Shown: in pieces, positions 23,984 through 29,356 of the stretch
Layout: each line of letters starts with the position of its first letter
How positions within the stretch are numbered: the first letter of the stretch is position 1
Source of the DNA: Candidatus Gastranaerophilales bacterium
Lineage (GTDB): Bacteria > Cyanobacteriota > Vampirovibrionia > Gastranaerophilales > Gastranaerophilaceae
Length of the DNA: 64,000 nucleotides
Assembly: GCA_944322855.1 (NCBI GenBank)
Contig: CALUQG010000007.1
Coordinates: 62,001-126,000 of the forward strand
Direction: 5' to 3'
Position numbers and translations under genes: made by a program
The notes under the pieces: model-generated
Databases searched by the model: none
What the model was told of the DNA's origin: nothing
Seen by the model: the letters and a program-made list of their open reading frames with translations, nothing else

Positions 23984-25057
23984 TTAATTACTGTTATCAA
24001 CATAGAGTCTTTCATCGTTGATTAATTTTTCAACATTTAAAATATTATAGACTTTCCCGTCGATATATGCTTCTGCATTAATATACAAATTATCAAGTGT
24101 CATATCATTTTTAGGTTCAATATAATCTTTTGAAATGTTTATTATATCAATAATATCATCAACGATAAATGCTATTTTTAATTCTGATGATTCAATTACT
24201 ATAATTTTTTCTTCATTACTTTTTTCGTGTAAGTGGGGGGGGGCCGCTATCTGTGGATTATGGAAATCATTATTGGTATATCCTATAAATGATTTCAGAT
24301 CATACACGGTATAAAAATTTCCTTTAAGATTTATTATTCCTTTAATAAAATCAGGTGTATATGGAATTTTTGTTACAGGATAATTTTTTAGTGAGATTAA
24401 TTCCTTTACAAAAAGAGAATAAATACAATATGTGTGTTTATTTATTTTAAATAGTACATACTGATCTTTTCCATATATGCTGGTATCCAAATTCATTTCC
24501 GGGATACTTGCTATATCGTTTCTCCTTTTTTGTAAAATACAAATAGAGTTTTCATCGCTTGGAAACAATTCGGAATAATTTGTTGTATTATTCATGCTAT
24601 GCGCACTTTTTATCGTATTTTCAAGCTGCTCTATGTTAATAATATTTATTACGTTTTCATCAATTTTATAAAATGTTTTGACAATATTGTTGGAGTTTTC
24701 TCCCATAACTCTTTGAATTTGAGAAGGAATTGCAGTGAAAAAATCAGTAACTTCATCAACAATAATTGCAATAAGAGATTCATCACCTTTTATAATAATT
24801 ACTTTGTTTGAAAGTTCATATTTTTTTTGAGGAAGAGAAAAGATTTTTCTTATATCAGCAACATTTATAAACATATCATTGTAATTCAATATCCCGACAA
24901 TAAACTCCGGCATTTTTTGCGGTTCATTTATCATTGGAAGAGTTGTAACTTCCAGAACATTTTGAGCACTCAATGCATAAATATTGTAGTCAAGCGTAAA
25001 ACATAAATAAAGATTTTCTGAATCATCGATGGTTAATAAAGATTGTTTAAAATCCAT
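23984..25057 (-). CDS. tandem CheW-domain chemotaxis coupling protein with a C9 tract
   Basis: 357-residue cytoplasmic protein containing two CheW folds, linking receptors to CheA. Domain 1 (about 15-150) has LCFTLDYNIYALSAQNVLEVTTLP, FIVGILNYNDMFINVADIR and IIIVDEVTDF. Domain 2 (about 195-350) has YVLFKINKHTYCIYSLFVKELISL, FIKGIINLKGNFYTVYDLKSF and IAFIVDDIIDI. A run of nine C in the coding strand (24235-24243 in plus coordinates, codons about 272-274, read Ala-Pro-Pro-His) lies in a loop of domain 2. Loss or gain of one C would give a stop within 15 codons and remove the end of domain 2. It is divergently transcribed from the MCP and CheA genes, with 141 bases between, so it belongs to the same system. 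Confidence 0.9.
   Translation of the reverse strand: MDFKQSLLTIDDSENLYLCFTLDYNIYALSAQNVLEVTTLPMINEPQKMPEFIVGILNYNDMFINVADIRKIFSLPQKKYELSNKVIIIKGDESLIAIIVDEVTDFFTAIPSQIQRVMGENSNNIVKTFYKIDENVINIINIEQLENTIKSAHSMNNTTNYSELFPSDENSICILQKRRNDIASIPEMNLDTSIYGKDQYVLFKINKHTYCIYSLFVKELISLKNYPVTKIPYTPDFIKGIINLKGNFYTVYDLKSFIGYTNNDFHNPQIAAPPHLHEKSNEEKIIVIESSELKIAFIVDDIIDIINISKDYIEPKNDMTLDNLYINAEAYIDGKVYNILNVEKLINDERLYVDNSN
24235..24243. repeat. nine-base G/C homopolymer inside the tandem cheW gene
   Basis: Nine consecutive G on the plus strand (C on the coding strand) in otherwise AT-rich DNA. It is in frame as given, and both single-base slips lead to early stops. Such tracts are classic contingency loci in host-associated bacteria. 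Confidence 0.9.
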
Positions 25058-25198: not shown

Positions 25199-26209
25199 AT
25201 GAGCGGCAAAGACGAGTTGACATTCAGAAAAAAATCAGACATAAAATTTATGCTTGATGTTATTTTTCTTGTAATTTTATTAATATTAATAATTACCGTT
25301 TCACTGAAACAAATCTGGTATCCAGGTGTAATTATAGGTATTTCTATACTGTTTATTGCATATATAGGACAGTATATATGGAGTAGGGAATGGCTGCTCA
25401 ATGAATTAAGAAAAAGTGTCAAGGAAAAAGACAAAAAAACTCAAAAAACTGCTGATAAAATTCTTGATTCTACTCTTGAACAAAAAAACAGTATTAAAAA
25501 GTACGAAAATATCCACTCAAGCTCAATAATAAATCTTGAAAAACTTAGATCGTTATGTTTTACAATAAAACAAAATTCTAAAGAAATACTCTACAAAATC
25601 TCTGAGTCTTTGAAAAATGCCAATATTGAACAAAAGCCTGTTCAGGCAAATATTGATAAGATGATAGTTCTTAAACAACGTATACAAATTATTGCTGAAT
25701 TAATTCTTGAATTGAGTGAATATATCCAGCAAATAGGCTCAATAATCGGTCTTGTTGAAGATATAGCAGAACAGACAAATATGCTGGCATTGAATGCTGC
25801 TGTAGAAGCAGCTAGAGCCGGTGAACACGGTAAAGGTTTTGCTGTAGTAGCCGGTGAAATCAGAAAACTCGCCGATGAATCAAAGCAGGCAACAACAAAA
25901 ATCGGTTCTTTGATTAATGATATACAACACACTACAAATTCTACAGTAATGGCAACAGAAGAAGGCAGCAAAGAAATCGAATCAGGAGTAAAACTTGCAA
26001 GCAATATCGAAGAAAACTTCAATATCCTGAATGAGGCTTTGAATAATGCGTTAAAGTTCATTGAAAATATATCTTTGAATTCTGAAAATCAGGAAAAATT
26101 ATCATCAGAAATTGTTAAAACACTAAAAGAAAACGCAGAAGAGCTCTCTGATGTAAATCATCTTTTAAACAAAAATATCGAAACTATTAATAATCTGAAG
26201 AATGAATAA
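25199..26209 (+). CDS. methyl-accepting chemotaxis protein without a periplasmic sensor domain
   Basis: 336-residue chemoreceptor. Two hydrophobic segments (about residues 17-38 and 43-61) are separated by only a few residues (SLKQIWYPG), so there is essentially no ligand-binding domain outside the cell. No HAMP domain is obvious. The conserved receptor hairpin tip is at about 184-224 ([42 protein letters not shown]-type residues), which binds CheA and CheW. The signal must come from the membrane, the cytoplasm or another receptor. GAGGAA lies upstream of the ATG. It is followed after 36 bases by the CheA gene and is probably cotranscribed. Confidence 0.92.
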
Positions 26210-26245: not shown

Positions 26246-29200
26246 ATGGATTTTTTGCCGGAAGAATTTGAAGAAATTTTGAATATATTCAGGGGTGAAA
26301 CTGAGGAAATCATCCAAAAATTCAATAATAATCTTCTGCAGCTTGAAAACAACCCGAATAATAAAGAACTTTTGATATACCTTTTCAGAGATGCGCATTC
26401 GCTTAAAGGTGCGGCAAGAATGATAGGATTTAATAATATTCAGCGTCTTGCCCACAAAATTGAAGATGTTCTCGGGATGGCAAAAGAAAATAAAATTGTC
26501 ATAGACAGAAAAATTCTTGATGCATTATATAAAGCAACAGATTTGCTGTCTGAGTTGATTTATGAATCAGTAAAAATAAAAAAGGAATACTATACAGATG
26601 ATATTCAGCATCAAATCGATTTTATAGACAATCTTCTCAATGAATACGAAACAACCAACTCTAATTCAGCTAAAAAAGAAGATTTGAAGGCTTCTCAAAC
26701 TATACAACCTGAACCTGAAAAACCTACAAAAGAATTTTCTAAAGAATGTCTAACTATAAATGCTATTATCTCCGAAGCATATCTTCTGCTAAATAACATG
26801 AAAGGGGAAGAAGGCTCGTCTTATATAGAGACATTTGATGATCTTATAAAACAGCTGAGAGAAAAATTTGAAAAAACCACTTATTTTGATATAAAAAATG
26901 AAATCGAAAATATTGATGCAAAAACTGAATTTGTCTTGAAAAATTCAAACATCATGACAGACGAAGAAATTTTTGATATAAAAGCAAAACTGACGAATAT
27001 TGTTAATTCTCTGAACAAAGTTTATACAGAACAGGGTTATGAACATTTTGATTTAAAAAAACTAATTGAAGAAAAGTCTCATAATAACCTGGAAAAAACA
27101 ACAGAAAAAAAACAAAACAATACTGCAGAAAAAACAGCAATACAGCTTGAAGAAAAAATTGAATATATCAAAGACGGACTTAATGAACTGGAGAAAAATC
27201 TTTCTCAAATCCCTTCATTAAATGAAGTTTTGAATGAGATTTCTAAATTAACACCAAATAAAAAAGATATTTCAAACATAATTGAAAAAATAAAAGAAAT
27301 TCTTGATATTTTAAAAAAAGAAAACTCTTTGCCTGAAAAAGAGATAATCAATATACTTAAACAAAGTCTTGCATCTGTTGAGAAAATGATATTTGAAACA
27401 AAAGAAGAAGCGGATGATATTTCACTTGTTATTCAAAGGCTTGATATTATAAAACAGATGCTTGACATAAACTCTTCTGTCAATCCTCTGAACAAGCTCA
27501 GTAACACTCTTGATGAGTCATCGCTACCAATAAAAAAAGCACAGGACTTTTTTAACTCATTCGAAACAACATCAATAAGGACTCTTCGTGTTGACTCAAA
27601 AAAACTTGACAGCCTTGTCAATCAGATTGGAGAGTTGATTATTGCAAGAATAAAACAGAAAAAAAATATAGCGGAATTGGAAAATATTCTGTCTGAAATA
27701 ACTGAGATAAAAAACTTTAATACAAAATCACAGAGTTTTATAAAATACTACGACAGAAAATACTTAAATACGGAAGAACCTATTGACTACGCTACATTTT
27801 CTGTATTTAGCAAACAAATTTTTTCTATATTACAAGAAAATTCTGCAAAAATATTAAAATTGAATAATCGCATTTTAAGTCTTCAAAAAATGGCAGATGA
27901 AGAAGACACAAAGCAAAGTCTTATTATCACGCAATTGGAAAGTATGATAAAAAATATTCGTGTGCTGCCGCTGGCGACTATTTTCCATATGTTTCCGAGA
28001 ATGATAAGAGATATATCTAAAGATACAGGTAAAGAAATTGAACTTCTGATATCAGGAAGCGAAACAAGTGCTGATAAAAAAGTTATTGAAGAAATCAAAG
28101 CGCCTTTAATGCATATCATAAGAAACTCTATAGACCACGGTATAGAAATGCCGCAGGAAAGAATAGCAATGGGAAAATCTCCTAAAGGGAAAATATATCT
28201 GATTGCTAAAAGCATACAGAATAAGATAATTATAGAGGTTCACGATGACGGAAGAGGCATTGATCTTCAAAAGATTGTAAAAAGAGCGCTTGAAAAAAAC
28301 TTGATTACAAAAAAAGAAGCGGAATATCTGAGTGCAGAGCAGATTATGAACATAATATTCTGGCCCGGATTTTCTACTGAACAGGTGGTAACAGAGATTT
28401 CTGGCAGAGGCATTGGACTCGATATTGTGCAAACAAAAATATCCCAGCTCAACGGAACAGTAAAAGTATTTTCAGTTCCCAATCAAGGGACAAAAATCAC
28501 TATTGAACTCCCTATTTCAATGTCGACTTTGAAAGCGTTTATTGTGGAAACTTCCGGACAGCTTTTTGCACTGTCTATGACGTCTATAAAAAATGTAATG
28601 TGGATAAATGAAAATGATATATATACAAGAAATGAAGCAAGAACAATAATGCTTGAAGGAAAAAATGTCAGCATTTTTTATTTGAATGAATTAATGGATC
28701 TTCCTGAAACAAGTCTTCAAAAAGAACCTAAAAAAACAGTTGTTCTTATAGAAATAGAAAACAGTCTTATGGGAATAATCGTTGATAGGATTCTCGGAGA
28801 TCAAAATATTCTCCAAAAAAAACTTGATCCGCCTATTGTTAAATTGAAAAACATTTCCGGTATAACTACACTTGCAAATGGTGAAATATGCCTGATATTA
28901 AATCTTGTTGAACTTTATAAGAGCACTTATGTACCGGTAGAGAAACCGCTTATGGCAGTACCAAAATATCAAATTGCCGCAAAAGAAAACAAAGATTACA
29001 AAATTTTGATTGTGGATGATTCCATTACAACAAGAGAACTTTTGAAGAATATTCTGGTTCACTGGGGATATAGCTTTGAAATGGTAAAAAATCCGAAAGA
29101 AGCTTTTGAAATGCTATATAAAACCAACTTTGATCTTATTCTCTCTGATATGGAAATGCCTGAGATGGACGGAAAAATGTTTGTTAGAGAACTCAAAGCA

Positions 29201-29356
29201 CATCCGAAGTTTAAAAATATTCCGGTTGTGATTATTTCCTCATATGATACTGATACAATGGCTCAGGATATACCCGAGGTAGATGCATTTATCAGAAAAT
29301 CAAATTTCAATCAGGATGATCTTCTTGATACTATAGAAAAACTATTGAAAATATAA
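26246..29356 (+). CDS. cheA: hybrid CheA histidine kinase with C-terminal receiver domain
   Basis: 1036-residue chemosensory kinase. Order of domains: HPt (1-125) with phospho-accepting His51 in DAHSLKGAARMIG; a long charged Lys/Glu/Asn-rich segment (about 130-440) in which no normal P2 docking domain is recognisable; dimerisation region (about 450-500, RVDSKKLDSLVNQIGELI); HATPase with N box HIIRNSIDHGIE, G1 HDDGRGID and G2 SGRGIGLDIV; a CheW-like regulatory domain (about 765-900); and a receiver with Asp968 in ILSDMEMPEMDG. CheA-receiver fusions are typical of cyanobacterial and type IV pilus chemosensory systems. The absent P2 fits direct phosphotransfer to the attached receiver. Neighbours are the MCP, tandem CheW and an HD protein; no cheR, cheB or separate cheY is nearby. 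Confidence 0.95.
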   Translation: MDFLPEEFEEILNIFRGETEEIIQKFNNNLLQLENNPNNKELLIYLFRDAHSLKGAARMIGFNNIQRLAHKIEDVLGMAKENKIVIDRKILDALYKATDLLSELIYESVKIKKEYYTDDIQHQIDFIDNLLNEYETTNSNSAKKEDLKASQTIQPEPEKPTKEFSKECLTINAIISEAYLLLNNMKGEEGSSYIETFDDLIKQLREKFEKTTYFDIKNEIENIDAKTEFVLKNSNIMTDEEIFDIKAKLTNIVNSLNKVYTEQGYEHFDLKKLIEEKSHNNLEKTTEKKQNNTAEKTAIQLEEKIEYIKDGLNELEKNLSQIPSLNEVLNEISKLTPNKKDISNIIEKIKEILDILKKENSLPEKEIINILKQSLASVEKMIFETKEEADDISLVIQRLDIIKQMLDINSSVNPLNKLSNTLDESSLPIKKAQDFFNSFETTSIRTLRVDSKKLDSLVNQIGELIIARIKQKKNIAELENILSEITEIKNFNTKSQSFIKYYDRKYLNTEEPIDYATFSVFSKQIFSILQENSAKILKLNNRILSLQKMADEEDTKQSLIITQLESMIKNIRVLPLATIFHMFPRMIRDISKDTGKEIELLISGSETSADKKVIEEIKAPLMHIIRNSIDHGIEMPQERIAMGKSPKGKIYLIAKSIQNKIIIEVHDDGRGIDLQKIVKRALEKNLITKKEAEYLSAEQIMNIIFWPGFSTEQVVTEISGRGIGLDIVQTKISQLNGTVKVFSVPNQGTKITIELPISMSTLKAFIVETSGQLFALSMTSIKNVMWINENDIYTRNEARTIMLEGKNVSIFYLNELMDLPETSLQKEPKKTVVLIEIENSLMGIIVDRILGDQNILQKKLDPPIVKLKNISGITTLANGEICLILNLVELYKSTYVPVEKPLMAVPKYQIAAKENKDYKILIVDDSITTRELLKNILVHWGYSFEMVKNPKEAFEMLYKTNFDLILSDMEMPEMDGKMFVRELKAHPKFKNIPVVIISSYDTDTMAQDIPEVDAFIRKSNFNQDDLLDTIEKLLKI

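Follow-up and report, generated by a model that had tools for sequence, protein, structure and literature searches.

The window, a stretch of 64,000 nucleotides from a Candidatus Gastranaerophilales bacterium, carries a gene for a 357 aa CheW-CheW coupling protein (23984-25057, minus strand). Its divergent neighbour encodes a methyl-accepting chemotaxis protein (25199-26209, plus strand), followed by the gene for CheA (26246-29356, plus strand) with Hpt, dimerisation, ATPase, CheW and C-terminal receiver domains. Two PF01584 domains in the 357 aa product scored over the Pfam cut-off (154.9 bits in total), which bears out the two-CheW protein claimed in the first-pass annotation; the first is encoded at 24623-25009 and the second at 24011-24463, both on the minus strand. 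A CheV identity was considered and rejected, since the protein has no PF00072 receiver domain. CheW domains in this genome are confined to this protein and CheA, and it is therefore the sole CheW-type protein outside CheA. There are also 11 matches to flagellin in the genome. Four of the flagellins (L247-L250, on C3, C6, C33 and C27) have long, open frames of 630-699 aa, with near-identical N-termini and diverging central regions. A termite-gut relative, 'Candidatus Gastranaerophilus termiticola', has been described as likely motile and as having chemotaxis genes (PMC5877343).

The second CheW domain is interrupted by a C9 homopolymer (24235-24243, minus strand), which reads as G9 on the plus strand and confirms the nine consecutive G/C bases first noticed there. 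The codons at the tract are GCC CCC CCC CAC, encoding Ala-Pro-Pro-His, and at a length of nine the tract is in frame, as had been claimed; it occupies codons 272-275. One additional C gives a product of 280 aa ending at a TAA, and the loss of one C gives a product of 285 aa ending at a TAG, compared to 357 aa at full length. By arithmetic, these stops fall within 24199-24218 on the minus strand, the TAA near 24216-24218 and the TAG near 24199-24201, in agreement with the earlier prediction of stops about 8 and about 14 codons past the tract start. The tails read in the two shifted frames are short and rich in lysine, with nothing remarkable about them. The tract is a G/C run of at least 7 within a reading frame, which is the working cut-off for a poly-G/C contingency locus, and a change of one base ends translation early.

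The position of the tract was examined on an AlphaFold2 model of the CheW protein built from 29 sequences (mean pLDDT 73). The tract lies in a disordered, length-variable loop of the second CheW domain (residues 261-281, 24215-24277, minus strand; pLDDT <50), which sits between strand 247-253/helix 254-257 and strand 284-288. Within the aligned region that was examined, no part varied more in length than this loop. Both frameshift products stop at or just past the loop and are without the six strands and last helix of the domain (E284 to H346), so that the invariant residues D300, I302, E329 and D348 are lost. In all, 72-77 residues, half a domain, would go on a frameshift, and the first domain would be untouched. 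The computed frames support the proposal that slippage would remove the end of the second CheW domain and spare the first. The shortened protein may be altered or inactive.

The C9 tract is the sole G/C run of at least 7 in the window, where 0.43 matches were expected. Stretches sampled elsewhere in the genome (240 kb, 35% GC) had G/C runs of 6 at most, with counts falling ~8-fold per added base. Long A/T runs, by contrast with the long G/C runs of the genome, are depleted: their counts fell faster above 7, with a sharp drop above 8. A pattern search of the whole 2.0 Mb genome found 52 G/C runs of at least 6. Extrapolating from these 52 runs with the ~8-fold fall per base, ~0.7 runs of at least 8 would be expected, and seven were seen, of lengths 8, 9, 9, 9, 9, 10 and 11, six of them being 9-11. 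Codon bias was rejected as the source of the run, since the probability of Ala-Pro-Pro being written as GCC CCC CCC is about 0.0008 under the codon usage of the genome. Surface-sugar homologues hold or adjoin three of the other tracts of this genome; one tract is within a hexapeptide-transferase-like gene, one is within a DUF1796 gene adjoining a glycosyltransferase-like gene, and one is at the end of a gene of the FdtA sugar-isomerase family. The C9 run in cheW is a real, unusual slippage-prone tract.

The cheW tract is known from one genome of its species; a search of genome contigs for further members of the species gave only three relatives, at 69-72% identity. A G/C run of at least 8 was found in none of the 46 other cheW genes read, 22 of them from other species of the genus and another 24 from the family, so that the tract is recent and species-specific, and the loop, too, is unique to the species. 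A single G/C run, 6 long, was found in or near cheW of L216, and in L204 (G039) a G9 lies outside the cheW gene, the frame of which is open over 339 aa. In the alignment, Ala-Pro-Pro is missing at the tract position from all 22 other species of the genus. Varied synonymous codons for Ala-Pro-Pro, which the first-pass annotation had named as grounds for refutation, have no bearing here because the homologues have no Ala-Pro-Pro there. Tracts of at least 8 were absent from the cheW orthologues; their presence would have been supportive and is not obligatory for a contingency locus. Many homology groups in Campylobacter mix genes with and without tracts (PMC6321876).

Long G/C tracts were common among the relatives. 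G/C runs of at least 8 occur in 20 of the 23 genomes of the genus, with 91-92 tracts in all; their lengths are 8-13 with a mode of 10-11, and a C stands directly before 65 of 92. In the family, such runs are carried by 106 of 117 genomes, representing 36 of 37 genera, with a median of 15 and a maximum of 133 tracts per genome and at least 90 tracts in each of 13 genomes. A class-level draw included one genome, G195, with 179 tracts of at least 8; families f3, f8 and f9 were also tract-rich, and the large-genome family f2 was poor. These family and class figures are raw tract counts, the excess over chance having been computed for the window's own genome. Many of the relatives' tracts lie ~50-250 bases from a contig end (G006:C90, G011:C10, C35 and C60, G010:C16, G016:C74 and others), where the tract or flanking repeats perhaps break the assembly.

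The genes that carry these tracts were then compared; several of the genus target names were assigned by eye from sequence. Large proteins with GGAIYN/GDFIGNY repeats, resembling polymorphic membrane proteins (Pmp), have the tract near the start, between the ATG and a signal-peptide-like segment. The one such protein tested gave a weak match to PF02415 Chlam_PMP (E=0.00024) over the repeat part only. In the G016 and G018 assemblies, none of the Pmp-like copies examined read through from the upstream ATG; read-through does occur in copies from other species, L115, L117, L158 and L181 among them. Several copies of the Pmp-like genes are present per genome, with tracts of 9-13 (L163-L178, L117, L123, L128, L181 and L183). 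In AlgX-like acetyltransferase genes of four species (L114, L124, L129 and L187), a C10-C11 tract lies at about residue 100, its length being 10 in two species and 11 in two. The tract divides a methyltransferase-like gene (L109), a pyruvyltransferase-like gene (L152) and a DNA methylase gene (L175) into two frames each, and a flagellin gene (L157) is split at a G12; a FliF gene of the genus has a G8 that is in frame. L175 comprises two adjoining DNA-methyltransferase-like genes (G018:C7:28899 and 29476) with a G11 each, one of which is split in frame. From its sequence, this pair is a candidate phase-variable methylation system.

Some of the tract-bearing genes form arrays and encode prepilin-like proteins. 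In G132, we sampled 20 regions (L227-L246), where many of the prepilin-like genes have a G9-G11 tract and most of the sampled copies are out of frame. Ten clear prepilin genes were found in these regions, with the tract ~8 codons past the ATG and before FTLAEVLITL-type motifs; the upstream frame gives KGDKIM or something close to it. The tract is in frame in two of the ten, and PF07963 was matched for the one prepilin tested. A pattern joining G8 to an FTLAEVLITL-type motif within 30-60 bases matched 28 of the 117 family genomes, compared to none of the 117 for a reversed control of the pattern. G132 itself gave 61 forward and 23 reverse matches, roughly 47 genes after allowing for overlap (forward). 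The pattern was absent from all six genomes of the window's genus in the 117-genome draw. Across the family, ON and OFF frames are mixed among the tract genes. This suggests that the family-wide poly-G set consists of translational contingency loci that allow on/off switching on a large scale. At the sequence level the lineage-wide poly-G set has good support, and it is a stronger and more important result than the cheW tract.

Tracts in the genus were grouped by matching 22-base flanks, giving 84 pairs, and tract length differed in 58 of these pairs, which are mostly paralogues or cross-species copies and not strains. Among the 15 pairs with identical flanks, five differed in tract length. 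These differences show faster change in the length of the tracts than in their flanks; they do not speak to slippage within a strain. Between G016 and G018, a close species pair chosen for same-locus comparison, no orthologues could be cleanly paired one to one on both flanks.

The nearest parallel to this set is the phasome of Campylobacter. C. jejuni has 18-39 phase-variable genes, and 81 repeats were counted in one subsp. doylei genome at a cut-off of 7 (PMC6321876). In both lineages, G/C runs of at least 7 lie in reading frames of an AT-rich genome, switching is by translational frame, and the targets include glycan, flagellar and restriction-modification genes. In contrast to Campylobacter, the Gastranaerophilales belong to another phylum, as non-photosynthetic Cyanobacteriota, and on their side there are up to 179 tracts (of at least 8) and prepilin genes in arrays. 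In Helicobacter canadensis, phase variation of C-termini (PMC2823697) resembles the cheW case in that poly-G occurs late in the coding sequence and slippage alters the end of the protein without doing away with it; there, mostly few residues are changed and the tracts are at least 10, whereas cheW would lose 72-77 residues at a tract of 9. The analogy with Campylobacter and Helicobacter poly-G loci drawn in the first-pass annotation holds. The genome has an excess of tracts and the whole family carries them in number, many of them dividing genes that belong to the classic contingency classes. The polymorphic membrane proteins of Chlamydia also carry poly-G tracts. The GGAIYN/GDFIGNY-repeat proteins of the genus are similar to them in often having a tract near the start, but the phylum is different, the weak match is to the repeats only, and the cheW tract is unrelated. 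H. pylori fliP is a motility contingency locus. As at fliP and at maf1 of C. jejuni, a homopolymer in cheW would make motility switchable, with the difference that the target here is a chemotaxis coupling protein.

In the favoured explanation, the C9 tract is a slippage-prone run in the gene for the sole CheW coupling protein of a flagellin-bearing bacterium, and it may act as a switch. Gain or loss of a C at replication would convert the full-length protein, reversibly, into one with the first CheW domain and the first half of the second, and this would alter receptor-CheA coupling in part of the population. The tract is one of seven long G/C tracts in the genome and would be part of the family-wide contingency set. 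We give an even chance to the tract being such a working switch within that set. Phase variation of this cheW is plausible; that the tract slips, that the function of the second domain is lost and that the cell benefits are steps that we infer. The published literature, as far as its searched part extends, holds no phase-variable cheW. The earlier reading of a phase-variable coupling protein stands as regards the tract, the frames, the two-CheW protein and the analogy. To call it a reversible on/off control of chemotaxis goes too far, because a frameshift would leave a protein with the first domain and half of the second.

The switch has to be weighed against a tract that arose by chance in an insertion-tolerant loop, in a lineage where long G/C runs are tolerated at replication, and that slips at a raised rate to give defective variants which are purged, with no selected switch. 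The loop that holds the C9 is length-variable and disordered, no other cheW gene read has the tract, and some tracts of the genus occur in genes that by eye are housekeeping-like, such as the AddB-like L143 and L108, resembling a PLP-dependent enzyme of sulfur metabolism. With nine bases against a mode of 10-11 and a loop that tolerates insertions, the tract may be a recent neutral expansion. However, three of the seven tracts in this genome lie in or at surface-sugar homologues, which would be rare under random placement, and long homopolymers are normally avoided in coding sequence. We regard the neutral tract as a serious possibility that is somewhat less than probable; as between a working switch and a neutral tract, the balance is about even. 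A consensus artefact, with the true length differing from nine, is improbable: homopolymers are error-prone, the assembly is a draft in 33 contigs, and several relatives' tracts lie at contig ends, but at a length of nine the two halves of the CheW domain, itself a good match, share one frame, and both sides of the tract align to orthologues. Slightly more improbable still is programmed frameshifting or transcriptional slippage, by which both proteins would be made at once from unchanged DNA. Polymerases or ribosomes are known to slip on long homopolymers, but neither the tract nor a shifted frame is conserved in the orthologues, and the tails after the shift are short, rich in lysine and without notable features.

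Poly-G phase variation is known mainly from a few pathogens, and Gastranaerophilales are common, essentially uncultured gut residents. In the part of the literature searched, no paper on phase variation in Gastranaerophilales or Melainabacteria was found. It is somewhat more probable than not, taking both parts together, that Gastranaerophilales and some other Vampirovibrionia families have poly-G phasomes among the largest known and that cheW has been captured into one in the window species. If so, there would be up to ~180 tracts per 2 Mb genome, prepilin arrays and Pmp-like proteins would each be switched by a G-tract near the gene start, and one clone could display a vast number of surface combinations. 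The captured cheW would make chemotactic coupling heterogeneous within the window-species population. A phasome several-fold larger than that of Campylobacter, with pilins, Pmp-like proteins, glycans, DNA methylation and motility as its targets, would suggest that harmless gut bacteria make surface diversity likewise.

Sequence around the tracts is in places common to different loci. The stretch ATGCA-Gn-CGGCACG(T/C)CCCTG occurs in L104 (G000:C10:20305, G9) and in L159 (G015:C11:46130, G8), which are from different species, and L012 and L014 have the stretch TGAAGAAAATTTACTCAGTCCTG in common.
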